In this document: piece after piece, positions 25,205 through 43,555 of the stretch
Numbering within the stretch: the first letter of the stretch is position 1
Layout of the letters: each line of letters opens with the position of its first letter
Source: Verrucomicrobiia bacterium
GTDB taxonomy: Bacteria; Verrucomicrobiota; Verrucomicrobiia; Opitutales; Cerasicoccaceae
DNA: 64,000 nt
Direction of reading: 5' to 3'
Assembly: GCA_030425485.1 (NCBI GenBank)
Contig: JAUIAM010000003.1
Coordinates: 124,001-188,000, forward strand
Notes under the pieces: model-generated
Told to the model about the DNA's origin: nothing
The model's database searches: none
The model's input: the letters and a program-made list of their open reading frames with translations, nothing else
Made by a program: the position numbers and the translations under genes

Positions 25205-26209
25205 ATGAACATCACCGAAAAGAAAACGATTTGGGGTCGGTATAATCCGGCGCTGAATGAACGCCTGAAGGCACTCATCGAGACAAAGTGGAGCGACCAC
25301 CCGCAAAGCCCGGTCATTGAGCCTTTTCTCAAAAACGTCATTGCTGACCCGACGGTCATCACGCCGTCCCTTTCACCTGATGGCCAGTGGCATATTATCA
25401 CCTGTGGCAGTCATGGCACGCTCGCTCAGTGGACGTCGCCGGACGGTATTGATTGGGAGCGCTATGCCTTTCACGAGTGGGATGGCTTTTCACCCTTCGT
25501 CTACCCGATGGACGGACGCTACTACCTGTTCTATCAGATGAACAATTTTCCCGAGCGCTGCTGGATCGTTATGCGCCACAGTGACGACCTGAAAAACTGG
25601 TCCGAACCCAAGACACTCCTGGAGCCCGATCTGGAATGGGAGGACATGGAGTTTCGCCCGACATGTCGTAATGCCTGTCTGACACCCATGCCGGACGGAC
25701 GTTTCGCCCTCTATTACAGTGGCGGTGTTAAACGCATCCCGGACCTGGGTTTTGAAGAACCAGCCAACATCGGCGTAGCATTCGCGGACAAAATCGATGG
25801 TCCGTATGTCAAACATCCCGAGCCGCTGCTTCCACCAGATGAGGATGACCCCTACCGTAATATCGGGGCGGGGGCGATGAAGGTCTACTACCTCGAAGCC
25901 TATGGCTTATACGTTGGGTTTAACAACGGTGTCTACTGGGATAAGGAGGTCGATCACAGCCGCTCTGCCATTCACGTGCTGCTATCGGAAGATGGTCTCG
26001 ACTGGTATGATACTCCAAACAATCCCATCATCGAACCAGAGGCCAACAGTTGGAAGTCCTCGCTGGTCTACCAACTTTGCCTTGCTGCCCACGGGGATGA
26101 GTGGCGCCTTTATTATAACTCACGCGAAGGTTGGGAAGTCGGTATCGAGCGTATTGGTTTGGCCATCGCGCCGCGAAACGGTGTTAACCCGAAAGGTGTC
26201 GTCAGCTAA
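25205..26209 (+). CDS. GH43-like five-bladed beta-propeller glycosidase
   Basis: 334 residues from the ATG at 25205, 25 bases after the GH2 stop; a TTG at 25172 would overlap that gene. The sequence shows repeated propeller elements: VIADPTVITPSLSPDGQWH, LAQWTSPDGIDW, SPFVYPMDGRYYLFYQ, MRHSDDLKNWSEP. The Asp of ADPTV fits the catalytic base of clan GH-F/GH32-like propellers, and the Glu of EWEDMEFRP may be the acid. No signal peptide is visible, so it probably acts on imported oligosaccharides. The family cannot be fixed from sequence alone; GH43, GH117-like and GH130-like propellers all look alike here. Its stop shares a base with the next ATG. Confidence 0.7.
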   Translation: MNITEKKTIWGRYNPALNERLKALIETKWSDHPQSPVIEPFLKNVIADPTVITPSLSPDGQWHIITCGSHGTLAQWTSPDGIDWERYAFHEWDGFSPFVYPMDGRYYLFYQMNNFPERCWIVMRHSDDLKNWSEPKTLLEPDLEWEDMEFRPTCRNACLTPMPDGRFALYYSGGVKRIPDLGFEEPANIGVAFADKIDGPYVKHPEPLLPPDEDDPYRNIGAGAMKVYYLEAYGLYVGFNNGVYWDKEVDHSRSAIHVLLSEDGLDWYDTPNNPIIEPEANSWKSSLVYQLCLAAHGDEWRLYYNSREGWEVGIERIGLAIAPRNGVNPKGVVS

Positions 26210-27732
26210 TGGCATCTGCCGAGTCCAGACCGAACATCCTGCTGCTCTTCACCGACCAGCAGCGTTTCGATGCGCTCGGCGCCCTCGGCAATCCCGTCCT
26301 GCGCACGCCGAATCTCGATCGGCTCTGCTCGGAGGGTACGGTGTTTACGCGCTGTTATACGCCCTCGCCGGTTTGTGTCCCGGCGAGGGCGGCACTGGTC
26401 AGTGGTTTGCCGCCGCATCGCACGGGTTGTTGGGACAATGGTACAAACATTGGCGAGGAGATTCCCAGCGTCATGGGGAAACTCACGGATCTGGGTTACC
26501 GGACGCATGGTATCGGTAAGATGCACTTCACCCCGCAGCGCGAACGGCTGTGGGGCTTCGAAAGCCGTGAGGTCAGCGAGCGTGGTGACGATGACTACCG
26601 TGCCTTTCTTGATGCCAACGGTTACGGGCATGTTCTCGACGTGCACGGGGCCTTGCGCGAAATGTATTGCGTGCCGCAGGTGTCCCAGATGCCTGCCCAC
26701 TTGCACGAGACCGCATGGGTAGCTGACAGGTCTATCGATTTTCTGAAAGATCGTGACCGGGAGCGTCCTTTCTTCCTCTGGTCGAGCTTCTTTAGTCCGC
26801 ATCCACCTTTTAATGCGCCGACCCCGTGGAATCTTATCTACTGGGCTGGCCAGATGCCTCCACCCTTCAGGCCTGAGGGGTACGAGGACCTGCTAACCTT
26901 CTGGAACCATCGCCAGCAGCGGGCCAAGTATCGCGACCAAGGGTACGATCTTTGGCTGATGCGTACCATCAAGGCGATTTATTACGCTTCCATTTCATTC
27001 GTTGATTTTCATATTGGGCGTATCCTTGAGGCTCTTGGAGACGATTTGGCCAATACCTTGGTCGTATTTGCCAGTGACCACGGTGAATTACTCGGTGACT
27101 ATGGTTGTGTCGGTAAGCGCTCGATGCTCGATGCCTCAGCTCGTGTGCCGTTGGTTGTACGCTGGCCCGACGGTCAACGTGCAGGAACGCGCCATGAGGG
27201 TGTAACCAGTTTGCTGGACTTGCACCCGACCTTCCTCGCTGCGGCGGGAAGCGAGCAGCCCACAGTATGTGAAGAGGGCAAAGATCTCGCCTCGGTTGCC
27301 GATGGCGGGGTGGGCGAGCGCACGGTCTACAGTCAGCTCCAGACAGACGGTATCGGCCTGCATATGGCCGTTAACGAGCGGCGCAAGTATGTGTACTCGG
27401 CTGCCGATGAGCGGGAGTGGCTCTTTGACCTGGAATCGGACCCGAAAGAAACGCACGACTTTGCTGGGAATACAGCCTATACGGATGATCGGGCAGCTTT
27501 ATCGACAGCCCTGAAAGAGCGTTATCGGAATGACCATTATAGCTCTTGCCTGGATGGTGCGTCTTGGCGTCGCTTCGGTAAGAGGGCCCTTCCTGATAAC
27601 CCGGATGATGGGGTTCTGGTTCAACACCCCAAGGGGGTGGAGAAGCTCTTGGAGGAACTGGGCCCTTATGCACCTCCTGCTTTGCCTGCCACCTGGTGGA
27701 TGGGAAAGCCCAACCCTAGCAACAAGGCATGA
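26209..27732 (+). CDS. Type I (formylglycine) sulfatase 1
   Basis: 507 residues. The formylglycine motif is C56-V-P-A-R in SPSPVCVPARAAL-like context (SPVCVPAR), so the Cys must be converted to formylglycine. Metal ligands are seen as D16 (LFTDQQ) and ASDHGE further on (calcium-binding DH pair). GKMHF supplies the usual Lys/His pocket. No signal peptide is present: the protein starts directly with RPNILLLFTDQQ, which argues for cytoplasmic action. It begins in the stop of the propeller gene (TAATG) and overlaps the next sulfatase by 4 bases. It resembles the sulfatase at 31013 (same PSPVC-x-PAR and GDLG/GDYG layouts). The substrate is likely a sulfated sugar in the imported glycan. Confidence 0.92.
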   Translation: MASAESRPNILLLFTDQQRFDALGALGNPVLRTPNLDRLCSEGTVFTRCYTPSPVCVPARAALVSGLPPHRTGCWDNGTNIGEEIPSVMGKLTDLGYRTHGIGKMHFTPQRERLWGFESREVSERGDDDYRAFLDANGYGHVLDVHGALREMYCVPQVSQMPAHLHETAWVADRSIDFLKDRDRERPFFLWSSFFSPHPPFNAPTPWNLIYWAGQMPPPFRPEGYEDLLTFWNHRQQRAKYRDQGYDLWLMRTIKAIYYASISFVDFHIGRILEALGDDLANTLVVFASDHGELLGDYGCVGKRSMLDASARVPLVVRWPDGQRAGTRHEGVTSLLDLHPTFLAAAGSEQPTVCEEGKDLASVADGGVGERTVYSQLQTDGIGLHMAVNERRKYVYSAADEREWLFDLESDPKETHDFAGNTAYTDDRAALSTALKERYRNDHYSSCLDGASWRRFGKRALPDNPDDGVLVQHPKGVEKLLEELGPYAPPALPATWWMGKPNPSNKA

Positions 27733-29141
27733 GCACTCACCCTTCAGTGCTCGTTTTGATCGCCGACGACTGGTCGCCACTGGCTGGTTGCTACGGTAAC
27801 GCGGTCGTGCGCACGCCCAACATTGATTCGGTGGCGGCGAAGGGTATGCTCTTTGAGCGTGCCTACTGCACGACGCCCTCGTGTGCGGCCTCGCGGGCAA
27901 ACATACTCACGGGCCTTTATAGCCATCAGCACGGGCAGTATGGGCATACGCATGGAGTGCACCACTTCTCTACGCATGAGCATGTACGCAGTTTGCCTGC
28001 TATACTCAACGATGCGGGTGTGCTCACCGGGATGATTGGCAAAGATCACGTTTCACCCCAAAGCGTGTATCCATTTTCTCACTACGACAAATCTCTGCCT
28101 TGGCGCACGCGAGACTTGGTGGCTTCCACTCGTCGCTTTCTAAAGGATGCTGATGGAAAGAGCTTCTACCTGCAGGTCGGGTCCATGTATCCGCACCGTA
28201 CTGGCGGGGACTTCGACCCCTCGGTGGGCGATGGATACGAACCGGATGTTCGCTACTCGCCAGATGAGGTTATCGTGCCGGATTTTCTGCCAGATACGAT
28301 CGGGGTGAGGCACGAGCTGGCGGATTATTACCGCTTTGTAACGCGCTTTGACCGCTTTGTTGGTGAGGTGCTTGGAGAGCTTGAACGTGCCGGGAGAATC
28401 AGGGATACGCTGGTGATGATCCTATCGGATCATGGTATGCCTTTCCCTGGTGCGAAGGCGTCGTCTTACAATACCGGGCATCATTGCCCGCTGATTATCC
28501 GGCACCCCGATGGTTATGGAGGTAAAACGGATGCCGGTGTTAACTGGACGGATATCGCTCCAACCGTAACTGATTTTCTGGATGTCTCACCGGAGGAATG
28601 TCCAGAGGAGTGGACGGGGCGATCCCTGCTTCCGCTGCTGGCGCACCCCGCTGCACCGGGCTACGAACTGACGTGGTTCTCCCATAGTTTTCATGAGGTA
28701 ACTAACTATTACCCTTACCGTGCGGTGCTCGATAGACGCTACAAGTACGTACGTCATTTGGCTTATCGTGAGCCCATGCCGCTTGGGACTGATCTCTACG
28801 ACTCGGTTACCTGGCAGCAGGTCCTGGCTGATAATAGCGAGCGCATGGGGAGTCGGGTGACCCGTGATGTATGCTTTCGACCGCAGGAGGCACTCTACGA
28901 CCTCGATGACGACCCGATGGAAACCGTCAACCTAATCGATGAGTCCGGGCTGCGGGAAACGGCGGAACGTCTGCGGGCAGCGCTCATGCAAATGCGCCTG
29001 CGTACTCGAGATCCATGGCTTGAACTGGATTACCAGCAGGGGCGCTTACCTGAGCACTTACGCGACGGTCTGTCGGGACGGTCCTGGCATGTGCCTCGTG
29101 GGCTCGCACCCCTCGCACAAGAGGAGTGCGCCAGGCAATAA
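27729..29141 (+). CDS. Type I sulfatase 2 (CAASR type, N-sulfoglucosamine sulfohydrolase-like)
   Basis: 470 residues. The maturation motif is C52-A-A-S-R in TTPSCAASRANIL, which fits C-x-A-x-R and not the C-x-P-x-R of the other three sulfatases here. Metal-site features are LIADDW near residue 11 and LSDHGM later. The overall layout (YSHQHGQYGHTHGVHHF, TGMIGKDHV) resembles the heparan N-sulfatase-like S1 group, though that does not prove the substrate. There is no signal peptide. It overlaps the preceding sulfatase by ATGA, so translation is coupled, and is followed 7 bases later by the sugar isomerase gene. Confidence 0.9.
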   Translation: MSTHPSVLVLIADDWSPLAGCYGNAVVRTPNIDSVAAKGMLFERAYCTTPSCAASRANILTGLYSHQHGQYGHTHGVHHFSTHEHVRSLPAILNDAGVLTGMIGKDHVSPQSVYPFSHYDKSLPWRTRDLVASTRRFLKDADGKSFYLQVGSMYPHRTGGDFDPSVGDGYEPDVRYSPDEVIVPDFLPDTIGVRHELADYYRFVTRFDRFVGEVLGELERAGRIRDTLVMILSDHGMPFPGAKASSYNTGHHCPLIIRHPDGYGGKTDAGVNWTDIAPTVTDFLDVSPEECPEEWTGRSLLPLLAHPAAPGYELTWFSHSFHEVTNYYPYRAVLDRRYKYVRHLAYREPMPLGTDLYDSVTWQQVLADNSERMGSRVTRDVCFRPQEALYDLDDDPMETVNLIDESGLRETAERLRAALMQMRLRTRDPWLELDYQQGRLPEHLRDGLSGRSWHVPRGLAPLAQEECARQ

Positions 29142-29148
29142 TTTACTT

Positions 29149-29976
29149 ATGAAACTATCTATCGTATCCACGCTACGGGGAGGCTTTTTCTTCCCAGACA
29201 TGCTGCCGGGAGAGAGCTTTCGGGAGCGTCTCGTTTCGCTGAAGCGCTTTGGTTTCGACGCGGTCGAAATCTGGGGGAAATGGTTGAAGGAGGACCTCGA
29301 CGATGTGCAGGCGGCGCTCAAGGCAGAAGGCGTTCCTGCTGGCAATATTTGTTCGGGCTTCCGTGGCAATCTTCTCGCGGGTGACCGCGATGAGCGCATG
29401 ACCTGCTTTCAGGACTTTTTCGAGCTCTTGGAGTTGGCCGCGAAGCTTGAGTCTGCCGGGCTGGTTTTTGTGCCGCTCTTCGACAAGCGCCCGCAGATGC
29501 CGGATCTCAGTCCGCTCTGGGACCCACACGAAGTTCAGCGGCAGGTATTTCTCGACATGTTGGGCAAGCTCACGGAGCGGGCTGAGTCTCTCGGAGTAAA
29601 GCTCCTGCTTGAGCCAGTCAACCGCTACGAGACGCACGTGGCCAACACCCTTGCTGATGCGGCCGATTATATTGAGGCAGTCGGCTCGGATGCGCTGCGC
29701 ATTACGGCAGATTTTTTCCATATGAATATCGAGGAGATGGATATGGCGGCGAGCATACGCCAGTACGGCCACCTCATTGGTCATGTTCACATGGTGGACT
29801 CTAATCGCTTCCTTCCCGGCCAGGGGCATACCGATTTTTCTCCCGCCATGCAGGCGCTAAAGGAAGTCGGCTACACGGGCAACCTGTCGCTGGAGTGCTT
29901 TGCCCGGGGCGAACCAGAAGTCGTGCTGCCGAAGTCGGTGGCTTTTATGAGAAACCTTATCGAAGACGCATCATGA
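29149..29976 (+). CDS. Sugar phosphate isomerase/epimerase (xylose-isomerase-like TIM barrel)
   Basis: 275 residues from the ATG at 29149; longer frames upstream lie inside the sulfatase gene. The metal ligands of the AP-endonuclease-2/xylose-isomerase-like barrel are visible: Glu in LLLEPVNRYE, Asp/His in ITADFFHMN, His in GHVHMVDSNR and Glu in LSLECF. HTDFSP is the usual substrate loop. Members isomerise or epimerise keto sugars, inositol derivatives or 3-keto-glycosides. It overlaps the Gfo/Idh/MocA gene by 4 bases (ATGA). That pairing, with an FAD oxidoreductase downstream, fits oxidation-epimerisation chemistry on a sugar, but this is inference. Confidence 0.85.
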   Translation: MKLSIVSTLRGGFFFPDMLPGESFRERLVSLKRFGFDAVEIWGKWLKEDLDDVQAALKAEGVPAGNICSGFRGNLLAGDRDERMTCFQDFFELLELAAKLESAGLVFVPLFDKRPQMPDLSPLWDPHEVQRQVFLDMLGKLTERAESLGVKLLLEPVNRYETHVANTLADAADYIEAVGSDALRITADFFHMNIEEMDMAASIRQYGHLIGHVHMVDSNRFLPGQGHTDFSPAMQALKEVGYTGNLSLECFARGEPEVVLPKSVAFMRNLIEDAS

Positions 29977-31001
29977 TTAAAATTGGAATCATAGGACTCG
30001 GCGGAGGTGGTGCCAACCACGCCAGTACGCAAGCGAAGAACCCCATGGCGGATCTTGTTGCCGTATCGGATATCGACACGGCATTGATGAAGAAGGTAGC
30101 GACTGAGAACAAGGTTCCGCATCAGTACAAGGACTGGCGAGATTTAATTGCCAACCCGGATGTCGATGCGGTGATCCTGGCCACGCCTCCCTTTATGCGC
30201 AAAGAGATGTTTCTGGCCGCGGCTGAAGCGGGCAAAGACATCCTGGCCGAAAAGCCTTTCGGTGTATCGCTGAAGGAGGCGAGAGAGATGGCTACGGCTG
30301 CCAGAAAACACAAGGTGCGCGCTATGGTCAACTTCGGCACACGCAACCTGCCAACGTACAAGAAGCTGCGCTCACTGGTCGCATCTGGTAAGTACGGTAA
30401 GCCTCAGTTCATTTGGTTTAAGTACTTCCTTGTCTGCAATCCCAAGCGTTTTATGCCGCCGGGTTGGTTCTGGAAAAAGGAGCTAAGCGGCGGGCATTTG
30501 TGCGAGAATGCCGGGCACGCCTTTGATTTGATCTGCGAGCTGATGGGGCCGGTAAAGTCCGTTAGCGGTACGATTGCAACCTTACCGATCAAGCACTATG
30601 CGGAGCGTTTAAAAAACGATCAACCAAACTCGGAAAACCTGGGCATAGCCACGCTTCAGCATGAGTCCGGAGCCATCGCAGTGTTGGCCAACGGCAGTAA
30701 CCCGGGTGGGCAGTGGGGGATGACCTTCGACCTGATTACCGACAGTTGCATTATCTCTGTGACCGGAGACAAGGTCATCGAGGTGCGGCAATACGGTGAG
30801 CGCATCTACCGTTATGCTTCGCCCGTAGGTTGGGACCCTATTCCACGTGGCTCGCGGGCCTTTGTTCGCTACTTGAGTAATGGCGGCGCACATGACGACT
30901 CCATCGCGACGGTGGAGGATGGTGTTCGCGCCATGCAAATCGCCGAGGCTGCCTACCTCTCCTCTGACAAGGGTAGGACTGTCGCCTTTGACAAAATCTA
31001 A
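29973..31001 (+). CDS. Gfo/Idh/MocA family NAD(P)-dependent oxidoreductase
   Basis: 342 residues from the ATG at 29973. The Rossmann motif is IGIIGLGGGGANHA (4-17). The family Glu-Lys-Pro is E93-K94-P95 in ILAEKPFG, with Lys as the catalytic base. The C-terminal domain carries GGHLCENAGHAFDL, giving the conserved His near residue 190. It would oxidise or reduce a sugar hydroxyl, most often at C1 or C3. It has no signal peptide. It is embedded between the isomerase (4-base overlap) and a sulfatase 11 bases downstream, in the same operon. Confidence 0.88.
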   Translation: MIKIGIIGLGGGGANHASTQAKNPMADLVAVSDIDTALMKKVATENKVPHQYKDWRDLIANPDVDAVILATPPFMRKEMFLAAAEAGKDILAEKPFGVSLKEAREMATAARKHKVRAMVNFGTRNLPTYKKLRSLVASGKYGKPQFIWFKYFLVCNPKRFMPPGWFWKKELSGGHLCENAGHAFDLICELMGPVKSVSGTIATLPIKHYAERLKNDQPNSENLGIATLQHESGAIAVLANGSNPGGQWGMTFDLITDSCIISVTGDKVIEVRQYGERIYRYASPVGWDPIPRGSRAFVRYLSNGGAHDDSIATVEDGVRAMQIAEAAYLSSDKGRTVAFDKI

Positions 31002-31012: not shown

Positions 31013-32503
31013 ATGCCTATCGATAAACCAAACATTCTGCTGATTCTGACCGACCAGCAACGAGCCGATACGATTGCCGCCCTCGGCAACGAGCGTATCC
31101 GTACACCCAATCTGGATCGTTTGGTATCGGAAGGGGTTGCCTTTACTAATGCCTATTCCCCATCGCCAGTCTGCGCGCCTGCCCGTGCATGTCTACACTA
31201 CGGACAGTATCCGGCCAAGACCCAATGCCTCGGTAATATCCACCCGACTACCCCGGATGACCGTGAGTCCTACGCGGACGTGTTCTCACGTCATGGCTAT
31301 GAGACCATCGGAATTGGTAAGTGTCATTTTCTGCCGGATCGGCTGGCCCTGCGCGGTTTCAAGCAGCGGCTTACGCAGGAGGAGGCACCACGTTGCATTG
31401 AAGATGATGATTACCTGAAGTTCATCCGGCAGAGCCCTTATAAAAATACCCGCGATGTGCATGGGACGTGGAGGGACCTGCTTTATATGCCGCAAACTTC
31501 ACCGCTTGATGAGGCGCATCACCCTACGCAGTGGGTTGGTGATCGTACGATAGACTTTATCCGGGAGAAGGCTGGGGGAGAGCACCCCTGGATGGCTTTT
31601 TGCAGTTTCATCCATCCTCATCCGCCCTACGCGCCACCGGCACCATGGGATATGCTGTACACTCCAGACGAGATGGAGTTGCCGTATCAGCCAGCGGGAT
31701 ATGAGTCGCGCCAGCCAGCTTTTCAGGGAAGTGACGGGTTGCATCATTACTATTTCGATCCACCCGTGAGCGATACGCTCTGGCGCATGGTTAAGTCGCG
31801 CTACTATGCCTGTATTTCCTTTGTGGACCACCAGATCGGGCGTATCCTGGATGCCCTCGAAAGCAGTGGGCAACTGGACAACACGCTCATTGTCTTCAGC
31901 TCGGATCACGGTGAGATGCTCGGCGACCTTGGCCTCATTGGTAAAGGTAACATGTACGAGTCTTCGGCCAGGATTCCACTTGTTGTACGTTGGGGGGATG
32001 GCCGCCATGCTGGCGAGCGAGTGGATCTGCCAGTGACGCTCGTGGATGTCGCCCCGACGATGCTTGCCGCTGCCGGGTTGCCGCAACTGTCCGATTGCGA
32101 TGGAGAAGATCTTCATCAGCTCATCGACTGCCGTGGTGAATATACTGATCGGATTGTTTTTTCCCATCTCTTTAACCCTGACCGGGGCAGGTACATGAGC
32201 CGGAGCAGACGCTATAAGTACATCCATAGTGCCAGCGACCATATCGAGCAACTTTTTGACCTCGTCGCGGACCCAAATGAAGACGTGAACCTGATTGATA
32301 AGCCCTCCCTGGCAGGCGTTAAAAGCCAGCTTAAGGAAGCGCTGTTTAATTATCTGAAGCAGAACGCTATGACGGCGGGCATACTAAATGAAGCGTCTGA
32401 TGACTGGAAGGACTGGCCCGACGATAAACGGCGCATGCCCCGTACGAAGTCCAACGATCCCTGCCCATGGTGGGTGGAGAGGGAACAGCCTACACACATT
32501 TGA
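31013..32503 (+). CDS. Type I (formylglycine) sulfatase 3
   Basis: 496 residues. The maturation motif is C54-A-P-A-R in SPVCAPARAC. The N terminus KPNILLILTDQQ gives the first metal Asp (D14) without any signal peptide. SSDHGEMLGD supplies the second metal-binding pair, and IGIGKCHF the pocket Lys and His. Closest relative in the window is the sulfatase at 26209, suggesting duplication within the locus followed by divergence to a different sulfate position. It is separated from the FAD oxidoreductase by 3 bases. The exact sulfate ester is not predictable. Confidence 0.92.
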   Translation: MPIDKPNILLILTDQQRADTIAALGNERIRTPNLDRLVSEGVAFTNAYSPSPVCAPARACLHYGQYPAKTQCLGNIHPTTPDDRESYADVFSRHGYETIGIGKCHFLPDRLALRGFKQRLTQEEAPRCIEDDDYLKFIRQSPYKNTRDVHGTWRDLLYMPQTSPLDEAHHPTQWVGDRTIDFIREKAGGEHPWMAFCSFIHPHPPYAPPAPWDMLYTPDEMELPYQPAGYESRQPAFQGSDGLHHYYFDPPVSDTLWRMVKSRYYACISFVDHQIGRILDALESSGQLDNTLIVFSSDHGEMLGDLGLIGKGNMYESSARIPLVVRWGDGRHAGERVDLPVTLVDVAPTMLAAAGLPQLSDCDGEDLHQLIDCRGEYTDRIVFSHLFNPDRGRYMSRSRRYKYIHSASDHIEQLFDLVADPNEDVNLIDKPSLAGVKSQLKEALFNYLKQNAMTAGILNEASDDWKDWPDDKRRMPRTKSNDPCPWWVEREQPTHI

Positions 32504-32506: not shown

Positions 32507-34729
32507 ATGCAAAGAGAAACCAATATTATTGAAGAAAATTACGATGTCGTCGTGATTGGCGGAGGGCTTGCTGGTATATGCGCAGCAGTCGCGGCCGCAC
32601 GGCAAGGAAGAACAACCGTGCTGGTGCAGAATCGCCCGGTACTTGGTGGTAACTCAAGTGCGGAGATTGGTGTGCCACCACACGGGGCTGACCAGGCAGG
32701 CTCTTATCGTAATGTGCGCGAGACCGGTATTATTGACGAGATTGCTGCTGCTAACGTTACGTTTCCCAACCACCTCGATTCGCCATCAATATGGAGTCTT
32801 GTGCTGTGGTCTTTCTGTCGTGATGAGGCTAACCTTACCGTACATTTAAACACTCACGCTATGGATGTGGATGTCGATGGCACACGCATCACTGCGGTTG
32901 CGGCGGACCAGCAAACGACCGAGAAGCATTTCCGCTTTACGGGAGCCGTTTTTATCGACTGTTCCGGGGACGGCTTCCTCGGCTACCAGGCTGGGGCGGA
33001 TTACATGACCGGGCGAGAAGGCAGGGATGCTTACGGCGAGGCCATGGCTCAGGACAAGGCCGATGACTTTCGTATGGGCAACAGCATTTATATGCGCGCC
33101 CGTAAGGTGGAACAAGCCGTCCCCTTCGAGACGCCCGATTGGGCTCATGTGATACCTGGTGACGACAGCCTGCCCAACGAGGGCCGTAGTTGTCCGCACC
33201 CGATTGAGCACCTGACCAACCCGCGCGGTGGATGGTGGTGGATGGAAACCGGTGGTCGGCTGGATACCATTACGGATGCAGAGACGATTCGGGATGAGTT
33301 ATACCGCCGGGCGGTGGGCGTCTGGGATCATTTAAAAAACCGTGGTGAGCACGGTGCTGAAAACTATGTGCTGGAGTCTATCATGACGATGCCGGGCAAG
33401 CGAGATTCGCGCCGTTTCTATGGCGACTACGTCATGGTGCAGCAGGATGTCGAGGGTGGGTGTATCTTTGACGACACGGTGGCCTATGGCGGGTGGCATA
33501 TTGATGTCCATCAGCCTGACGGTATCGCGGGTGATATCTACTGGAAGGGGCGGCTGCTCAACGGCATTTACACCATTCCCTATCGTTCACTTTACTCGCG
33601 CAATATCGATAACCTGCTCTTTGCCGGACGGAACATCAGCGCCTCGCATGTCGCATTCGCCAGCGCACGTGTCATGCTGACTTGTGCGGTCATGGGGCAG
33701 GCTGTTGGTAATGCGGCTGCACTCTGCCTGGAGCACAAGTGTTCGCCGCGTGCCGTTGGGCAGCAGCATATACGTGAACTTCAGCAGCGTTTGGTGGAGC
33801 AGGATTGCTACCTGCCCGGTGTGGTTGGACGTCGTGAGGCAGACCTGGCACAAAGCGCCACCGTGCGCGTGTCTTCCGAGCATGTGCTGTCCTCACCTCA
33901 GGCGCACGAGTACATTCCCCTCGATGTAGATCGCGGACAGATGTTCGTGCTATCGGAAAAGCACCTGCGGGATGTGACTTTGCCTTTGGCTAATTCCGGT
34001 GAATCGGACATAAAGGTCAGGGCGGTCTTGCGAGCGGGGAAGCGCATTGACGACTTCACATCCGAGGTGCATCTGGCAGTAGCAGAAGCCACGGTCGCCC
34101 CGGGCAAGCACGAGGTGAGCTTTGCATTTGATTGCGATTTACCTGAAACTAATCGACCTTACTGGATACTACTGCCGGCGACGAAAAATCTGTCTTGGGC
34201 TTTTACGAAAGCCGAAGAGCCAGGCAGTCAAGCGGCAGCCCGCAAGGACCAGTATTTTACCGAACCGGGGACGGAGCAGCTAATGCACCGTGAGAGAGGC
34301 ACGCTTGGCTTTACCTTGAACCCAGCCAGCCGATGTTTTGGTGGCGAGCAGGTGCTTTCCGGTGTCACCCGAGCGGAGGCGGCTACCAATATGTGGTGCA
34401 GTGGCGATGGCTTGCCCCAATCCTTGTCGCTTTCCTGGGAAGCGCAGGTGCGACTATCCGAGGTGCAGCTTACCTTTGATAACGGACTTGATCTACCCAT
34501 GGGCAAGTGGTGTCAGCGTGGCCAATCACCTAGCCTGGTTCGCGATTATCGCGTCCTCTTTTTCGATGGCGAAGAGGAGGTCGGGCGAATTGAAGAAAGC
34601 AAGAACCGATTGCGCCGACGGATTCACGCCGCACCTTCGGCACCAGTAACATCCATCCGGGTCGAAGTGATGGCGACATGGGGCCTGCCTCAAGCCCGCA
34701 TTTATGAGGTGCGAGCGTTGCCAGAATAA
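32507..34729 (+). CDS. FAD-dependent oxidoreductase with C-terminal discoidin-like domain
   Basis: 740 residues. The FAD Rossmann motif is YDVVVIGGGLAGICAA (12-27), followed by PVLGGNSSAEIG, typical of the FAD_oxidored family. The distal FAD contact LLFAGRNISASHVAF is near residue 370. The flavin part ends at about residue 430. Residues ~440-540 look like a beta domain, and the last 150 (DGLPQSLSLSWEA to ARIYEVRAL) resemble an F5/8-type carbohydrate-binding fold. No signal peptide. It closes the long operon that begins at 20512. The shorter family member at 909 lacks the C-terminal extension. Sugar oxidation is inferred from context. Confidence 0.8.
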   Translation: MQRETNIIEENYDVVVIGGGLAGICAAVAAARQGRTTVLVQNRPVLGGNSSAEIGVPPHGADQAGSYRNVRETGIIDEIAAANVTFPNHLDSPSIWSLVLWSFCRDEANLTVHLNTHAMDVDVDGTRITAVAADQQTTEKHFRFTGAVFIDCSGDGFLGYQAGADYMTGREGRDAYGEAMAQDKADDFRMGNSIYMRARKVEQAVPFETPDWAHVIPGDDSLPNEGRSCPHPIEHLTNPRGGWWWMETGGRLDTITDAETIRDELYRRAVGVWDHLKNRGEHGAENYVLESIMTMPGKRDSRRFYGDYVMVQQDVEGGCIFDDTVAYGGWHIDVHQPDGIAGDIYWKGRLLNGIYTIPYRSLYSRNIDNLLFAGRNISASHVAFASARVMLTCAVMGQAVGNAAALCLEHKCSPRAVGQQHIRELQQRLVEQDCYLPGVVGRREADLAQSATVRVSSEHVLSSPQAHEYIPLDVDRGQMFVLSEKHLRDVTLPLANSGESDIKVRAVLRAGKRIDDFTSEVHLAVAEATVAPGKHEVSFAFDCDLPETNRPYWILLPATKNLSWAFTKAEEPGSQAAARKDQYFTEPGTEQLMHRERGTLGFTLNPASRCFGGEQVLSGVTRAEAATNMWCSGDGLPQSLSLSWEAQVRLSEVQLTFDNGLDLPMGKWCQRGQSPSLVRDYRVLFFDGEEEVGRIEESKNRLRRRIHAAPSAPVTSIRVEVMATWGLPQARIYEVRALPE

Positions 34730-35620: not shown

Positions 35621-35711
35621 TCGATCCCGACTAAGCCCAAGCCTGATGCCTTTCTGGTCCAAGTGACTGGGTAGGCTGTCGGATGCTGGATAACAGACAA
35701 ACGGCGCAGAG

Positions 35712-36398
35712 ATGCAATACCCCAAGGCAATGACAGCATTTCAAGCTTACGTGCACACAGGCACGATAAGCCGGGATGAGAGAGCGGCTCGCAGTTTCCG
35801 TGGCTTTTCGCTCACGGAGCTGCTTGTTGCTTTGGCTGTCATCGCGATCATTGCAGTGATCCTGTTTCCGGTGCTGGACGTTGTCAGGAACTCCAGCCAT
35901 CAGGCTGCTTGTGCCAGTAACTTACGTCAAATCGGGAGCACCTTTTCGATCTACGCTCTGGAGTATAACGGGAAGCTTCCACCGTGCATGCAGAGGAGGT
36001 CACCCGAAAGTGGCCTGTTTAATCCATGGCCCCGATATTTGACTCGGGTCATGCCGGAGTTTACGGGTGAATTGCAAAATCAGTGGTGGCGGTCTGACAT
36101 CTTTGTCTGTCCCGCCACGGGTGATGTCCGCAGTTATGGGATGAATTGGGCTGCCGGAGGCGTGACCGTGGCCAATATTGAGGACGCAAGTCGTAAGGTA
36201 TTGGCAGCCGACTCGGCACTTGGTCAGGGTGACTGGTCTCTAGCCCTGTATCCCGTCTGGCCAGACGATAAACATCAGCTTGATTTCCGCCATGGAGGGC
36301 GTGCGAACTTTCTGTTTTTTGACGGACACGTTGAGGCGCGCGACAACGACGAGATATACGAATGGGATAAGCCGGGGACCTGGAGAATCGAGCAGTAG
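35712..36398 (+). CDS. Type II pseudopilin-like protein with H-X9-DG motif
   Basis: 228 residues. The prepilin cleavage site is RG-FSLTELL followed by the helix LVALAVIAIIAVILFPV. The C-terminal region has HGGRANFLFFDGHVE, the H-X9-DG signature. The leader before the cleavage site is long (about 30 residues) if the ATG at 35712 is used; the ATG at 35730 shortens it. It lies 2 bases before the GH2 lipoprotein gene, so the two are co-transcribed. A role in surface assembly or secretion of the glycan-degrading machinery is inferred only from recurring neighbourhood. Confidence 0.85.
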   Translation: MQYPKAMTAFQAYVHTGTISRDERAARSFRGFSLTELLVALAVIAIIAVILFPVLDVVRNSSHQAACASNLRQIGSTFSIYALEYNGKLPPCMQRRSPESGLFNPWPRYLTRVMPEFTGELQNQWWRSDIFVCPATGDVRSYGMNWAAGGVTVANIEDASRKVLAADSALGQGDWSLALYPVWPDDKHQLDFRHGGRANFLFFDGHVEARDNDEIYEWDKPGTWRIEQ

Positions 36399-36400: not shown

Positions 36401-39400
36401 ATGATGAGTTTTTTCTTGTGCGGGGCGTTCCGGCAGTTCCGGGGTGTATGGTGTTTACTGATTTGCGTATTGGGGTTCGTGTGCGCTTGTGGCGGGCAGG
36501 AGCGTACGCAGGAGTCCCTGCTGGGGCAATGGCAGATCACGCCAGTGATGCCTGGGGAGGCGCTGAAGGATACACCACCGGATGGTCCATGGAAGACCAT
36601 TGATATCCCTCACGATCAGGCCTGGCTGACACAGGGAAAGGATTACAAAGGGCCGTTGCATGGCCTGCACTTTGGGGTGAATGCCAACAAGATACGTTAC
36701 GTTTGGTATCGCAAGGAATTTGAGCTCGATTCTGAGCAGCGAAACGAGGTTCGCCAGGGGCGGAGACTGTTTATCCACTTTGACGCCGTTGCTTTCGTAA
36801 CCGATGTCTACCTCAACGGCCATCATCTTGGCCGTAGCATAGATGGCTTCCTGCCCTTCGAGTTCGATGTCACTGACCTGGTTAACCTCAGTGGCGAGAA
36901 TACGCTGGAACTGAGGGTAGGTACCTATCATGTGGCCAAGGAGTTGGGCGCGCCCGTGGGAAATACTTTCCAGCAGCACGGTGGCATCTGGCAGCCGGCA
37001 TATCTGGAAACGCGTGGCTCAGCCTATGTGGAGGATATCTTTGTGCAGCCATCGGTGCGTAAGGGAGAGTTCAAGGTCGACTTGACTGTTAAGGGTGATG
37101 CGGGGGCTATACGGTCTGTTCGTTATGAAGTGTTGGACGATGGCGAGAGCGTGATCGAGGAGACGTTGCCGTTAGGTGAAGCCGTGAGTGTTGCTCTACC
37201 TTTTGATAACCCGACACTCTGGTGGCCCGATAGTCCGCATTTGTATACCTTGCGGACAGCATTGATCGCAGAAGACGGCTCCGTGCTGGATTACTTTGAC
37301 CAAGCGTTTGGCTTTCGTGAAGTTTGGATCGAGGGAACTGGGTTTTACCTTAATGGCAAAAAAGTTCATCTCTACGGACGCTGGACGCACGCGCCGTCGT
37401 TCTACCGTTCGCGTCTGTATCCGCCCGAGGCAGAGCCGTATTATGACGGGCGTTATACCATGCCGGAGGGAGGAGAGTACCTTACACCTGAAAATCTGTG
37501 GATGGCGCATAAGGAGCGCGGGGGGATTAATGTCGTACGCATTCATTGCCAGCCGGTGCCCAAGGTTTATCTTGATGAGGCAGACCGCCAGGGGATTTTG
37601 CTGATTGCCGAAACCGCCATCGACCATCGACCCAGGACGGAAGAGGCGTTTGAGCACGCTGTCAACTACGTCAAGCGCGACCGCAATCACCCGAGTATCG
37701 TCATGTGGTCGGGGTCGAATGAATTTTACCTGTGGATGGCTCCACAGCCACAACCCTACAAAACCTTTATGGCACAGGTCAGCCAGGGGATGCATGGAGT
37801 GGACCCGACGCGTCCGGTAACGCACTCCGGATTCGGCGTGGCCGATGAGAATGACGAGGTGATGAACTATCACTACCCGACACTAATGCGTCCGCAGTAT
37901 ATGCCCAATGAGCTGTTTTGGCCGCAGGACGTCGAGGAGTGTCGTCGGGATAAGGTCAAGACCTACCTCGAGCAATGGGAGCAGGACAAGCCGCTCATGC
38001 TCGGTGAAGTTCTTCCTCCGTGGAAGATGCGCTATGAATACGGTTTTGGCCATGAGTATTTCAAGCTGACGGCGCAGGAGCAGTTGGAGTTGGACCTGGA
38101 GCAAAAGCCGCTGCTGTACGCGAAGGTTGCGCTGATGTATCGGATGCAGGGTGTGATGCACCTCGGACAGTCAATTGGCGGCTCCGGTTACGTCGATAAC
38201 CCGATTAAGCAGCGCTTGGCGGACTTGGCCTATACCACGGTTGGGGGGATGTTTTATCCCTGGACGAAGCACTGGTTTGAGGGCCAGCCGATTCGTTACG
38301 AGTTATGGCTGTCTAACATTGGCTTGGAGGACTTTGAGGGAGACGTTGCCTTTCATCTAACTCAAGGGGAAAAGGTACTGTACGCATCCGAGCAGGCGCT
38401 GCGCATCCCACAAGGTGAAGCCCTGAAGGTGCCGCTCGAGATGACGGTCCACGCCGCGGATTATAACGCTGGGGTTGAATTACTGCTTACGGCACAAGTG
38501 GCTGGACGGGTGGGTGATGAGCAGATCGATACGCTCATCGAGCAGTCGCTTCGCGTGCTCCCCGCGGACGAGACCATTTCTGACCTGAGCCGTAGCGTTT
38601 TTATCTGGGCTGGCGGTGACTCCTACGAGCGAGCTGAAGCCTTATGGACGCGGATTGAAGAGGCGAAGTTTGTCGAGTCGGCTCAAGAGGTTCGGCAACT
38701 CGATCCCGGGGAAAGTATCCTCGTGCTCCCCGCTGGCGTGCATGCCCAGGCACAGGCCGCGCTTTCAGAATCCTTGAGTGCATATCTCAAGCGCGGGGGG
38801 CGCTTGCTTGTGTTGGAGCAGGAGAGCATGGAGCAAGCCTGGCTGCCCACGGAGATGGCTTTGTTGGATGATGCTCAGAACACCCTTTTCGCCAGTCCGG
38901 ACAGCCTGGCCCTTGGCTCGCTCCCAGAAGACGCATTGACCTACTGGCAGGGGGATCACCGGGTGGTACGTCGACCTTTCGCTGAGTCCATCGGGGGCGG
39001 CGTAACGGTCTTGGCCGATTTTCCAAGTGCGGGTGTTGTGCAGCTTCGCTGCGGCGAGGGGCTTGCCGTGCTCTCACAAGTTCTGGTCCAGGAAAAACTG
39101 AGTTTGGAGCCGATGGCGGAGGAAGTGCTGGAGGAGTTGCTTCGCTATTTAGACGAGGTTCGTATGCCCAGGCTGCGTGCGACGCATCTATGGGCAGATG
39201 AAGGGAGTCGCTACCGGGAAGCGCTTTCCGAGATCGGCGTGGTGCTGGAAAAGGAGACGTTCACACCTCGACCTGCGCTGGGAAAGAACGAACAGCTTCT
39301 CGTGGATGCCACGACAGTTGACATCGCTGAGCTTGTTGTCGTGCGCGATTGGGTAAAGCAGGGCGGGAGGCTGGTCCTGCACGATCTCAGCAACGAGCAA

Positions 39401-40481
39401 ATACGCGAGGTGGGAACCTTGTTCTCGCTGCCGATCGAAGCTGGAAAACCGCAGGAGCGTGTGGCACTGCTCGATAGTCCCCTGAGCTTTGGCATGAGCC
39501 CATATCTGTTGGCCTTTGGAGACGACGCCTGGCCATTGGCAGCCAGTCCGGTGTCTCTGACAAGCTCGGATTCGCATCTGGCCGAGCCAGCTACAGCGCC
39601 TATGCTCTGGGGAAGTTATCGCTATGGTGAAGGTGAGCTGGTGATTGATCAGGTTCAGTGGGACCGCGAGGCAAAGGAACGGCAGAAAGCCCTTCGCTTT
39701 GGCACCACACTGATCATTCATCAGTGTGGTGAAAGCCCTTCGCTTTGGCACCACACTGATGAATGATCTCGGTGTGCCGATGCAAGCCATCGAGGTGAGC
39801 ACAGGCGATGACGCCGGCTGGATGCCTATCGACTTATCGGCTAATATTAATGCGGGCGACACGATGGCTTTACCCGTGGTGAATGCCGGTAATGGAGCGA
39901 CTTCACGCCTTGATTTGCTCTCTGGCCAATGGCCGCGTGGCCGACAAGATATAGATGGCGTGACTTTCATTTTACCGGACCCGGTTGCGAATGAAGATTG
40001 CCTGATCCGCTTGAACACCAGGCGAGAATTGCCTGGCGGTACTATGTTAGAAACATTTCCGGGCCAGCCCACACGCCAGCGCATTCGCATCCCGCAGCGG
40101 ATCAACGCCGAGGAACTGGCTTTTGTCCACGGCTACATGCGTCTCTGGGACGAGCCCTACGAGCCCCCCGCACCTCCGGCCACCGTCATGACCTATCGGG
40201 TTCACTATGATACGGGCCGCGTCGTGGACATCCCGGTGCGTGATGGTGAAGCGATTCGACATATGCAGGACAAGCGGTCTGGCGAGTTGCCCGACGCGGT
40301 TCCTGCGTTCAAAACCCAAGTGCCCTACAGAGAGGGGAACACCTATTACATGATGCGGTGGCTTAACCCCCACCCGGAAGAAAAAATTGTCGCTGTGGAG
40401 GTGCTGGCGGAGCAATCACCGGCTTACGTGCCGGTTGTTCTTAGCATGAGTTTTGTCGAGTCCGCATTAGCCTACGACTAG
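36401..40481 (+). pseudogene. GH2 glycoside hydrolase lipoprotein, frameshifted by a 46-bp insertion
   Basis: The first frame (36401-39766) encodes a lipobox (VCAC), GH2 sugar-binding and Ig-like domains, and a TIM barrel with E441 (SGSNEFY) as acid/base and E536 (LMLGEVLPP) as nucleophile. At about residue 1104 the frame shifts. The remaining ~240 residues continue in the next frame to 40481. Removing 39715-39760 restores one protein of 1344 residues that aligns along its length with the LamG-GH2 at 20512 but lacks the LamG domain. The catalytic domains are intact upstream of the shift, so a truncated but active enzyme is possible. A true mutation, a phase-variable state or a sequencing/assembly error are all possible. 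Confidence 0.85.
39686..39760 (+). repeat. Quasi-palindromic 29-bp duplication causing a frameshift
   Basis: A 29-base segment (39686-39714) is repeated exactly at 39732-39760. Between them lie 17 bases, CATTCATCAGTGTGGTG, which are the exact reverse complement of CACCACACTGATGAATG at 39750-39766, the end of the second copy and its continuation. This direct-inverted-direct layout is what a polymerase template switch to the complementary strand and back would leave. Net insertion is 46 bases, shifting the GH2 frame by one. Confidence 0.9.
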
Positions 40482-40517: not shown

Positions 40518-42098
40518 ATGAATATTCTCAGACAACTCCTTCTAGCGGGACTTTTCGTTACCTCGATGTCATCTCTGGTGCATGCGGATGTGCGTATGCC
40601 TGCTCTCTTTGGGGATCATATGGTTTTGCAGCGTGATCGTCCATTGCCCGTCTGGGGATGGGCTGAGCCGAGCGAGCGGGTTCGCGTTTCGCTGGGCACG
40701 GTAGCTGCGGAGACTGTGGCTGATCAACAGGGGAAATGGCAACTTAGCCTGCCTGCGATGGAAGCTTCGCACGCACCGCTTGAGATGGTGGTTTCCGGGC
40801 GTAATCGCATTGTAATCAAAGATGTATTGGTGGGCGATGTATGGGTGTGCGCGGGGCAGTCGAATATGGAGCGTACGGTACTCCAGTCACATAACGCCAA
40901 ACAGGCTTTGTCAGAAGCCGACCTCCCTGCCATACGCTTCTTTCAGGTCGGGCGTAAAATCGCTTTTGAGCCACAGGCAGATTGCGCAGGGCAATGGGTG
41001 GTGTGTGAGCTGGGTTCACCTGCGCTAAGAAAGTTTTCGGCAGTCGCCTATTTTTTCGGCAAGGAAATTTTTGCCGCGCAGGGTATGCCCGTGGGACTTA
41101 TCGGAACCTACCGTGGTGGATCGCCAGCAGAAGCCTGGACGAGCCTTGAAAAACTCGGGTCCGTGCCCGCCCTCCAGCACTACGTCGAGGCATTTGAGGA
41201 AACCAAGATACACCTGCCCGAATTGGTCGAGGTCTACAATAAGGAGACTTTACCTGCCTGGCGTTTAGCCGTGAAAGCGTGGGAAGCCAAGCCGGCACCA
41301 CGAGGCCCCAAACCACGCTGGCCGCTGAGCCCCAGTACAAACCCGCGGCAGCCTACCGTACTTTTTAACGGTATGGTGAACCCGATCATTCCCTTTGCGA
41401 TTAAAGGTATTATCTGGTATCAAGGGGAAAACAACGGTCTCAGCACTGAGCATGCGAGCGAGTACGCAGTGCTCTTTCCAGCTATGATTGCTGATTGGCG
41501 GGAGCGCTGGGGGCAGGGTGATTTCCCTTTTCTTTACGTCCAACTCGCGAGCTACCAGACCAAGCAGCCCGAGAACGATTGGCCAAGGTTGCGGGAGTCG
41601 CAACGCCAGGCTCTCACCGTGCCCGAGACAGCCATGGCGGTGAGCATTGATATTGGTGAGCAATTCGACAGCCACCCCAAGAACAAAGTCGATGTGGGAA
41701 AACGCCTTGCGCTGGCTGCCCGTCACGTAGCCTACGGCGAAGACATTGTTTACTCTGGGCCTATGGTGAAGTCCATGCATACCGAAGGCACGAAGGCAGT
41801 GCTTCGGTTTGAACACATCGGTAGCGGGCTGACCATTGGTGTCCCACCTCCGATCCGTATGGGGCAAAAGCCACAGCAACCGTCGAGTTCCCTGCAGTCC
41901 TTTGAGATTGCCGGAGTAGAAGGTGAATTTTTTCCGGCAGAGGCAATCATCCAGGGGGATACCTTGGTGGTATCTTCGCCTGAGGTAAAGGCACCCGTTG
42001 CGGTGCGTTACGCCTGGGCCGCATGGCCTGACCCACGGCCCAATCTTTATAACCGGGACGGGTTGCCCGCCTCTCCTTTCACCGTACGATTGCCCTGA
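40518..42098 (+). CDS. Sialate O-acetylesterase-type (SASA/SGNH) carbohydrate esterase
   Basis: 526 residues. The signal peptide ends at LVHA-D. The start of the mature part (MPALFGDHMVLQRDRPLPVWGWA) is the beta-sandwich typical of this family. The catalytic Ser is S115 in CAGQSNME (SGNH block I), with block V near DSHPKNKVDVGKRLA supplying Asp and His. IIWYQGENN is the third conserved block. The family removes acetyl groups from sialic acids, xylans or other glycans in the periplasm. It follows the frameshifted GH2 by 36 bases in the same unit and overlaps the convergent sulfatase by 52 bases. Confidence 0.9.
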   Translation: MNILRQLLLAGLFVTSMSSLVHADVRMPALFGDHMVLQRDRPLPVWGWAEPSERVRVSLGTVAAETVADQQGKWQLSLPAMEASHAPLEMVVSGRNRIVIKDVLVGDVWVCAGQSNMERTVLQSHNAKQALSEADLPAIRFFQVGRKIAFEPQADCAGQWVVCELGSPALRKFSAVAYFFGKEIFAAQGMPVGLIGTYRGGSPAEAWTSLEKLGSVPALQHYVEAFEETKIHLPELVEVYNKETLPAWRLAVKAWEAKPAPRGPKPRWPLSPSTNPRQPTVLFNGMVNPIIPFAIKGIIWYQGENNGLSTEHASEYAVLFPAMIADWRERWGQGDFPFLYVQLASYQTKQPENDWPRLRESQRQALTVPETAMAVSIDIGEQFDSHPKNKVDVGKRLALAARHVAYGEDIVYSGPMVKSMHTEGTKAVLRFEHIGSGLTIGVPPPIRMGQKPQQPSSSLQSFEIAGVEGEFFPAEAIIQGDTLVVSSPEVKAPVAVRYAWAAWPDPRPNLYNRDGLPASPFTVRLP

Positions 42099-43555
42099 AC
42101 GCACTCTTTGCTGTCGCGTGGGTCGAGCTTCCAGGGGACGACATCCGCGGTCTCCAGATAGTGGGCCAGCAGGCGCTCCTTCATTTCTGGGACGATAGGC
42201 TGGTAGTGCGTGTTACCAATGAGGTTTGTGGTTTCGCATGGATCGTCTTTCAGGTCGTACAACTCGTCGGCCTCCTCCTTTCTGAGCACATACTTGTAGC
42301 GATCCGTGCGGCACATAATGGCTTTGCCGTGAGCTTGTGCATCATTGGCCTGAACATGAACTCGTGGCCAGTAGAGGCTGTCTTTATTCGCCTGTGGGGT
42401 ACCCTCGCTGCAATGTTCCTCGGTGGGCAGGCGTCCACCCTCACAAAAGACAGCGTCCCGGTGGGGTGTGTTCCGGCTTAGCAGGGGCAAGAGTGATTTA
42501 CCAAAATGTGTGTACTCCGGTTGCCAGCCAATGAGGTCGTATACCGTGGCAGGGAAGTCGATCAGCTCGACAAGCGCGTTGCGGGTACCCGGCATGCGTG
42601 GGTGGCTTTGTGGAGGCTTGAAAATAAAGGGCACGCGGGTCAGGCAATCTTCAAAGGTGTTCTGGGCTTTCTCGACCAAGCCGTAGTCACCCGTGTAGTC
42701 ACCATGGTCGGAGAAGAAAAACAGGGCGGTATCATCCCAACAGCCCATTGCCTTAAAGGCGTCGATCAGTCTACCGAGTGCCTGGTCGGTGCGCATGGCC
42801 ATCCCATAATAGGTTGCTCGGAGTTCATCCCACTGATCCTCGCTCCAGTGGACCAAGGCCTGGCGTTTACGCACTTCCTCCAGCAGGCGGGGTTTGCCGG
42901 GAGCAAGATCTTCAGCGCGAATCCGGGGCGGGAGCTTTGACCTGTCAATAGCACTGAAATAAGGCTCTTCGACGCCGTATGGCGGGTGGGGATACTCCAG
43001 CGCAAGGAAAAGGCAGAGCGGCTTTTCGCCCCCATAGTTTTGGGCAAAGGAGGTGGCGTCGAGTACATGAGCCCAGTCTGAGTCGAGGTACACGCTCTCG
43101 CTCACCTCCTTCTTCAGGCGACCTGCCATAAATGAATAGGCGTCTGCATCGCGCCAGCTTGTGTGTGTGTGCAGATTGGGGTGAGTCGGTTTCACCTGAT
43201 GGCGATAGTTGCAGGACGCAAGCGGGTCGGTTACGAGGTCGTTTTTTCCGCCCCAGTAGACGAAGTAGCCAGCCTTCTTTAGCTCCTTCAACAGACAGGG
43301 TTCCCCGGTGTGAAGAAGGTGCTGCATGCTGCGATGTCCGCGGACATGAGGGTACCAGCCTGTCATGAAGGAGCATCGACTGGGCGTGCAAACCGGATTC
43401 TGGCAAAAGGTCTGAGTGAAGGAAATTGCCTCTGTTTCAACCAATTGGTCAAGTACGGGTGTTTGTGCTGCACGATTTCCGAGGTGCCCAAGCATATCCC
43501 CGCGCCACTGATCAGGAATGAAGAAAATCAGGTTCGGTTTCTTATCAGCACTCAT
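42047..43555 (-). CDS. Type I (formylglycine) sulfatase 4
   Basis: 502 residues from the ATG at 43555; an ATG 18 bases upstream lies inside the operator and is less likely. The maturation motif is C56-T-P-S-R in NPVCTPSRCSFMTG, the canonical form. Metal-site features are FFIPDQW (D15) and FFSDHGDYTGD. The layout (WGGKNDL, ALEYPHPPYG) differs from the other three, so it probably removes a different sulfate. No signal peptide. It is convergent with the esterase gene and their coding sequences overlap by 52 bases. Operator 5 overlaps its 5' leader, so the LacI repressor is the likely regulator. It is the last gene before repeat C. Confidence 0.92.
   Translation of the reverse strand: MSADKKPNLIFFIPDQWRGDMLGHLGNRAAQTPVLDQLVETEAISFTQTFCQNPVCTPSRCSFMTGWYPHVRGHRSMQHLLHTGEPCLLKELKKAGYFVYWGGKNDLVTDPLASCNYRHQVKPTHPNLHTHTSWRDADAYSFMAGRLKKEVSESVYLDSDWAHVLDATSFAQNYGGEKPLCLFLALEYPHPPYGVEEPYFSAIDRSKLPPRIRAEDLAPGKPRLLEEVRKRQALVHWSEDQWDELRATYYGMAMRTDQALGRLIDAFKAMGCWDDTALFFFSDHGDYTGDYGLVEKAQNTFEDCLTRVPFIFKPPQSHPRMPGTRNALVELIDFPATVYDLIGWQPEYTHFGKSLLPLLSRNTPHRDAVFCEGGRLPTEEHCSEGTPQANKDSLYWPRVHVQANDAQAHGKAIMCRTDRYKYVLRKEEADELYDLKDDPCETTNLIGNTHYQPIVPEMKERLLAHYLETADVVPWKLDPRDSKECVQGNRTVKGEAGNPSRL

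Follow-up and report, generated by a model that had tools for sequence, protein, structure and literature searches.

The window, a 64,000-nucleotide stretch of a Verrucomicrobiia genome, appears to carry a catabolic cluster for a sulfated glycan that probably contains alpha-galactose. We consider it likely (roughly 0.7) that the work of this cluster is divided across the inner membrane and that desulfation takes place in the cytoplasm. The genes concerned, which include those of four sulfatases (S1 to S4), are as follows.

16117-17541, + strand: GPH-type (MFS_2) cation/sugar symporter, candidate importer (PF13347, 250.6 bits)
17566-18597, - strand: LacI-type regulator (NCBIfam LacI-family models)
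18619-20349, - strand: GH110-like alpha-1,3-galactosidase, no signal (PF23763/PF23764)
20344-25179, + strand: GH2 protein with LamG domain, export signal (PF00703/02836/02837, PF13385)
25205-26209, + strand: GH43/GH32-like protein, no signal (PF04616, 32.9 bits against a cut-off of 32.2; PF00251, 29.6 against 22.1)
26209-27732, + strand: sulfatase S1, no signal (PF00884, 166.8 bits; Cys-type site CVPAR)
27729-29141, + strand: sulfatase S2, no signal (PF00884, 137.7 bits; CAASR)
29149-29976, + strand: xylose-isomerase-like TIM barrel of the sugar epimerase/isomerase type, no signal (PF01261)
29973-31001, + strand: Gfo/Idh/MocA-type oxidoreductase starting with Met, no signal (PF01408)
31013-32503, + strand: sulfatase S3, no signal (PF00884, 179.8 bits; CAPAR)
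32507-34729, + strand: FAD-dependent oxidoreductase, no signal (PF12831, 320.6 bits)
36401-39766, + strand: second GH2 protein, export signal judged lipoprotein-like by eye (PF00703/02836/02837)
40518-42098, + strand: SASA-type carbohydrate esterase, export signal (PF03629, 75 bits)
42047-43573, - strand: sulfatase S4, no signal (PF00884, 119.7 bits; CTPSR), overlapping the 3' end of the esterase gene

All four sulfatases exceed the curated PF00884 cut-off of 25 bits and keep the C-x-P/A-x-R modification site together with the main catalytic motifs. A motif search found the D-Q/D-D first motif, G-K-x-H (G-K-N-D in S4) and SDHG in each of them, the middle-His pattern having matched an off-target site in S1; we take these to be the catalytic and metal-binding motifs of sulfatases. 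The genome also encodes a sulfatase maturation enzyme (TIGR03942 anSME, 506 bits against a cut-off of 349) and gives seven matches to the broad family PF03781. By domain, motifs and maturation enzyme, S1 to S4 are formylglycine sulfatases of family S1, with the activity predicted.

The Pfam domain begins at residue 8, 5, 6 and 13 of S1, S2, S3 and S4, respectively, which leaves a leader of 4-12 residues. Upstream of the chosen ATG the frames stay open for just 7, 3, 7 and 32 codons, and inspection of the four frames revealed no upstream start codon able to supply a signal. That true signals lie upstream of misassigned start codons is thus extremely unlikely. A hydrophobic run is present in the upstream open frame of S4, and short hydrophobic stretches precede the favoured Met in four homologues (S1 type: L067 and L068; S4 type: L073; S3 type: L168); however, no ATG, GTG or TTG stands ahead of the run in S4, S1 to S3 are open for only 3-7 codons, and the remaining homologues begin at the same point. 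Misassigned starts, which the earlier note had named as grounds for refutation, were therefore rejected, and its four signal-less sulfatases stand, except that its position 43555 is the second ATG of S4 and the first is 43573. A survey of 387 genomes scored at most four candidates per genome. There are 27 S3-type loci with the start beside the domain in 24 genomes of the phylum (one, L168, is doubtful), including S1, S3 and one paralogue from the window's own genome. A convincing signal was found at none of these 27 loci. Eight homologues of S4 (55-79% identity) likewise start next to the domain, L073 having an ambiguous hydrophobic longer frame.

Export signals were recognised by eye at the N-termini of both GH2 proteins and the esterase, as the earlier note had claimed. 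The hydrophobic run of the first GH2 protein ends in APASSA, and its exact start codon is uncertain. A second genome, G005, keeps the gene order LacI-GH110-GH2-GH43-S1-S2-TIM-Gfo-S3-FADox-two small proteins-GH2-SASA, and the G005 orthologues of the GH2 proteins and the esterase also bear signals, which indicates that the organism does use signals. The LacI-type regulator, whose best model is RbsR (149.7 bits, under the cut-off of 382), has an 81% orthologue in the G005 cluster.

Not mentioned in the earlier note, the GH110, GH43-like, epimerase-like, Gfo/Idh-like and FAD-dependent proteins are also signal-less. The GH110 protein resembles a solved GH110 (PDB 7jw4) over its full length (E 4e-94, residues 33-572) and keeps the Asp at the residue altered in the inactive D344N chain; on these two grounds it is a GH110 member, as predicted from sequence. 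It shares its start Met with the G005 orthologue. The GH43-like protein, a weak identification, has its first in-frame TTG at 25172, and its Met is conserved among orthologues. The start Met of the TIM-barrel protein lies immediately after S2, and the sole hydrophobic run of the FAD-dependent oxidoreductase is the N-terminal nucleotide-binding strand. The missing signals on four sulfatases and a sugar-cutting partner, and their conservation in homologues, thus make cytoplasmic desulfation the best reading, with sulfated fragments probably imported.

The absence of signals was compared across the family by a home-made rule for calling signals, with 2 of 91 calls altered by eye: L084 was changed to signal-less because its Met lies beside the domain and its tree sisters have no signal, and L107 was given a Tat signal, leaving the total of 25 unchanged. 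In the window's genome, 36 PF00884 matches gave 34 genes with a readable N-terminus (one gene was matched twice and one match was a contig-edge fragment), of which 25 lack a signal and nine bear one. Since 25 of 34 are already signal-less, four of four within the cluster is not beyond chance (hypergeometric probability ~0.27, by hand arithmetic), and the view that it is striking was rejected. Across three genomes of the family, 66 of 91 sulfatases lack a signal and 25 carry Sec- or Tat-type signals; for G007, 30 of 34 matches were counted. A further genome, G010, was excluded from this count and from the tree, and showed a signal on none of its 13 N-termini. When the localisation label was mapped on a tree of the 91 sequences built without leaders, it changed 12 times against a mean of 22 for shuffled labels, and none of 500 shuffles gave so low a number. 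The missing signals are thus mostly an inherited property of sulfatase subfamilies rather than a peculiarity of the cluster, and the signal-less arrangement is usual in the close relatives examined.

The same data bear on whether enzymes without classical signals might nevertheless be exported, by a non-classical route, in vesicles, by lysis or piggy-back on exported partners. In the Verrucomicrobiota genus Thalassobacterium, PMC11980603 reports that most products of PUL genes are predicted to be secreted, and it mentions vesicles. However, the signals on 25 of the 91 family sulfatases indicate that these bacteria possess the usual routes and employ them. The label tracks subfamily, and GH110 and the metabolic enzymes, signal-less as well, are encoded within or next to the same operon-like run. 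Such export of S1 to S4 is improbable.

The setting of this pattern against that of Bacteroidetes in the earlier note was too narrow: sulfatases without a signal form the majority in the three family genomes counted, while within the same superphylum Kiritimatiellales F1 and F21, which likewise have many S1 sulfatases, are predicted to have 354 and 339 with a signal and a minority of 141 and 106 that are soluble and cytoplasmic (PMC6388578). In Pontiella agarivorans, 96% of sulfatases bear signals (PMC10880615). No match to a SusC/SusD pair of the Bacteroidetes type was found among the window proteins scanned, and no SusCD was found in the North Sea Verrucomicrobiota sulfatase/fucosidase loci (PMC8857213). 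Like the window, these loci contain sulfatases (S1_8 among them), GH2, symporters and PF03629 proteins. The main text of that paper uses neither 'signal peptide' nor 'localiz', and the phrase 'cytoplasmic sulfatase' was not found in the literature searched.

In the process that we propose, the exported esterase and the two exported GH2 proteins would trim the polymer or oligomers outside the cytoplasm, and small sulfated fragments (mono- to trisaccharides) would enter via a symporter, here probably GPH and elsewhere SSF. S1 to S4, the GH110 and the GH43-like protein would then desulfate and split the fragments in the cytoplasm, and the epimerase-like, Gfo/Idh-like and FAD-dependent proteins would process the sugar. 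Alternatively, the substrates of S1 to S4 might be solely sulfated monosaccharides in free form or small sulfate esters other than carbohydrates, in the manner of a choline-sulfatase, with all glycosidic bonds cut outside. The choline-sulfatase BetC acts in the cytoplasm. The solved chains nearest to S1 are labelled choline-sulfatase and S1_30A, those nearest to S3 are labelled choline-sulfatase, and the choline-sulfatase-like enzymes 7oz8, 6fny and 7pth (PDB) are among the nearest solved sequences to S1 and S3; the exported GH2 proteins could also cut first. However, S1, S2, S3 and S4 score 226.4, 88.9, 243 and 137.2 bits with the choline-sulfatase model TIGR03417, all well under its cut-off of 433.45, so membership was rejected, and S1 and S3, unlike those enzymes, are located in a glycan cluster. 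The signal-less GH110 implies that disaccharides at least enter. In Pseudoalteromonas distincta, S1_8A and S1_15A are monosaccharide-specific (PMC12549532), which favours the alternative; taken together, we regard it as unlikely.

The lambda-carrageenan cascade of P. distincta U2A comprises GH110 alpha-galactosidases, S1_8 sulfatases and a GH2 that is active only after desulfation, and its oligosaccharides are degraded in the periplasm after GH150 (PMC12549532). The window holds a similar set: a GH110, an SGSH-like (S1_8-like) sulfatase, two GH2 proteins and three more sulfatases. S2 is the SGSH-like one, its closest solved relative being the human SGSH entry 4mhx, of the S1_8 type (E 7.8e-77, residues 6-431), and it matches S1_8A with E 1e-24. 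In the GH110 of the window, Ser occupies the alignment column of GH110B E480, which is Arg in GH110A. No GH150 was matched in the subset of window proteins scanned, and Pfam may lack a model for it. In contrast to P. distincta, the GH110 and S1 to S4 bear no export signal and signals occur only on the GH2 proteins and the esterase, so a periplasmic placement of GH110 and sulfatases as in that PUL is not predicted. What would be new here is a GH110/S1_8-like/GH2 kit divided across the inner membrane. An order with GH2 after desulfation does not fit exported GH2 proteins and cytoplasmic sulfatases, unless the GH2 proteins meet unsulfated ends or one of the genome's nine signal-bearing sulfatases acts first.

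At somewhat less than even odds, breakdown of sulfated glycans may be generally cytoplasmic throughout the family, with exchangeable symporters, a GH110/S1_8-type cascade in the cytoplasm, sulfate released inside and intermediates unshared with neighbours. If cytoplasmic desulfation were a rule of the lineage, the bacteria would need transporters that take up sulfated sugars, a function of transporters about which little is known. They would also have to cope with the sulfate released inside the cell, and neighbours would receive little of the product. Location could then be predicted from the sulfatase subfamily, which would aid the annotation of sulfatase-rich genomes.

The role of GPH as importer of sulfated fragments is uncertain. 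The earlier note had assigned uptake to this single symporter. Its MFS_2 domain and 7 spans in a crude hydropathy scan class it as a GPH symporter. It is the only protein with at least 5 predicted spans between 16117 and 43573, and a GPH gene lies beside or one gene from the S4 homologue at 3 of 8 S4 loci (G002, G005), both of which are consistent with that assignment. On the other hand, S4 and GPH are not in the syntenic G005 cluster, and neither GPH nor SSF was found in the 60 kb examined around this copy, so the idea that GPH is conserved alongside the core cluster was rejected. An ABC permease and an NMT1-like binding protein lie ~27 kb from the syntenic copy, and in a paralogous cluster of G005 an SSF symporter takes the place of GPH. 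A GPH or SSF gene occurs within 8 kb of 13 of 66 signal-less sulfatases versus 2 of 25 signal-bearing ones (Fisher p 0.22), and p ranged from 0.18 to 1.0 over the full set of twelve pairings of a distance with a kind of transporter; a significant nearness was thus rejected. A second locus in the window's own genome contains an SSF symporter, a signal-bearing protein, a signal-less sulfatase and a signal-less GH110 homologue, the latter two sharing 8 nt when the first start codon is taken.

The earlier note had claimed that the four sulfatases of the window, S1 to S4, lack signal peptides, and that both GH2 proteins and the esterase carry export signals. The sulfatases and a GH110-like alpha-galactosidase are as follows.

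18619-20349, opposite strand to the run of genes from GH43-like to FAD oxidoreductase: GH110-like alpha-galactosidase; no signal, catalytic Asp kept
26209-27732, plus: sulfatase S1, PF00884; domain from residue 8, 7 open codons upstream of the start
27729-29141, plus: sulfatase S2, PF00884; domain from residue 5, 3 open codons upstream
31013-32503, plus: sulfatase S3, PF00884; domain from residue 6, 7 open codons upstream
42047-43573, minus: sulfatase S4, PF00884; domain from residue 13, 32 open codons upstream

The domains thus begin at residues 5-13, and the frames upstream are short. The upstream frame of S4 contains a hydrophobic run, yet it is preceded by no start codon. Export signals were seen by eye on both GH2 proteins and the esterase. 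The short leaders, the lack of a usable start codon further upstream and these signals together confirm the observation. The Cys-type modification site, the first metal motif, the G-K-x-H/D motif and SDHG are kept in all four sulfatases. At their 3' ends, the genes for the esterase (plus) and S4 (minus) share 52 bases (42047-42098).

Signals were called by inspection together with a rule that considers the start codon, positive charge, a hydrophobic run and cleavage-like residues. The 36 PF00884 matches in the window's genome correspond to 34 genes with a readable N-terminus, of which 9 carry Sec or Tat signals and 25 carry none. Signals were found on 8 of 27 sulfatases in a genome of the same genus, on 8 of the 30 counted (from 34) in one of the same family, and on none of 13 in a more distant genome of the same order. 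In the window's genome and the first two relatives, 66 of 91 sulfatases lack a signal. Since the chance of drawing four signal-less sulfatases out of four in the window's genome is ~0.27 (hypergeometric, by hand), the cluster does not stand out there. The missing signals are a trait of the lineage and of sulfatase subfamilies, not of the window cluster.

On a tree of these 91 sulfatase domains, built with the leaders left out, the signal label changed 12 times against a shuffled mean of 22, and none of 500 shuffles was as low, indicating that location is mostly inherited with the subfamily. The clades that hold the window sulfatases, one of six members with S1 and S3, one of four with S2 and one of three with S4, contain no signal-bearing sequence. 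Of 387 genomes sampled across the phylum, 24 had S3-type sulfatases (E 1e-90 or better), at 27 loci including three from the window's genome. The start adjoins the domain in all 27, one of which is doubtful (a hydrophobic run upstream with TTG). Among closer homologues, two of S1 type (L067, L068) and one of S4 type (L073) have a short hydrophobic stretch after an earlier ATG.

As the window sulfatases and their clade-mates are without signals, the proposed cytoplasmic desulfation is likely; the location taken alone is very probable, and we put the whole scheme at about 0.72. Most sulfatases of Kiritimatiellales strains are exported, 354 against 141 soluble cytoplasmic ones in one strain and 339 against 106 in another (PMC6388578), as are 96% of those of Pontiella agarivorans (PMC10880615). 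Secretion is predicted for most PUL products of Thalassobacterium (PMC11980603), which argues against a phylum-wide rule. A literature search covering few subscription papers found, in the source parts available, no statement of a signal-less sulfatase majority in a Verrucomicrobiota family.

The genes for the GH43-like protein (25205-26209), S1, S2, a TIM-barrel epimerase-like protein (29149), a Gfo/Idh-like protein (29973), S3 and an FAD oxidoreductase are closely packed or overlapping, and no product of this run has a signal. The relative G005 has the same order (LacI, GH110, GH2, GH43-like, S1, S2, TIM, Gfo, S3, FAD oxidoreductase, two small proteins, GH2, esterase), with signal-bearing and signal-less products divided as in the window, as far as read. 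The two genes ahead of the second GH2 (34838-36398) are conserved in G005; they encode a small protein with a signal and a prepilin-like one (N_methyl motif). Similar prepilin-like N-termini were seen by eye near other catabolic clusters (L006, L012).

S4 and the GPH symporter gene are absent from the G005 core cluster. The earlier note had assigned uptake to this single GPH, which is the natural candidate because it is the sole protein with at least five predicted spans between 16117 and 43573. A GPH gene is the direct neighbour of an S4 homologue at G002:C87 and at G005:C37 and lies one gene off in G005:C12, that is, in 3 of 8 S4 loci examined. However, the 60 kb around the G005 core copy contained neither GPH nor SSF symporter genes, and thus no GPH link to the core cluster; it contained an O-antigen-ligase-like protein and, ~27 kb off, an ABC permease with an NMT1-like binding protein. 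In G005, a paralogous cluster (GH43-like, S1, TIM, Gfo, S3, FAD oxidoreductase) ends with an SSF symporter. In the three genomes, 13 of 66 signal-less sulfatases have a GPH or SSF gene no more than 8 kb away, versus 2 of 25 signal-bearing ones (Fisher p 0.22), a trend and not a result. The role of the GPH as importer of sulfated fragments is unproven.

The substrate is, as a best guess, a sulfated alpha-galactoside. S2 has its closest relative in the SGSH entry 4mhx, which PMC6388578 and PMC12549532 place in S1_8. The latter describes a lambda-carrageenan cascade of Pseudoalteromonas distincta that includes GH110, S1_8 sulfatases and GH2, is periplasmic and acts downstream of GH150. The window kit is similar in parts (GH110, S1_8-like sulfatase, GH2), but its predicted cellular place differs, no GH150 was detected among the window proteins scanned, and its GH110 has Ser at the column separating the two GH110 specificities of that system. 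Because the P. distincta GH2 requires earlier desulfation (PMC12549532), the exported window GH2s would probably meet unsulfated ends or depend on other, exported sulfatases. GH38-type alpha-mannosidase genes near S4-type sulfatases in the window's genome (L007:10328-13351) and G005 (L074:287-3313) hint at a possible mannose-containing substrate for S4.

Elsewhere in the window's genome (L019:4293-10228, C24), a compact locus comprises an SSF symporter, a signal-bearing protein judged LamG-like by eye, a signal-less sulfatase and a signal-less GH110 homologue (38% to the window GH110) that overlaps the sulfatase gene. Window 44358-53124 encodes a metal-resistance protein (PF13801), a sigma factor and an outer-membrane efflux protein, followed by what by eye resembles an RND-type metal efflux set, including one 1276-residue protein with 15 predicted spans.
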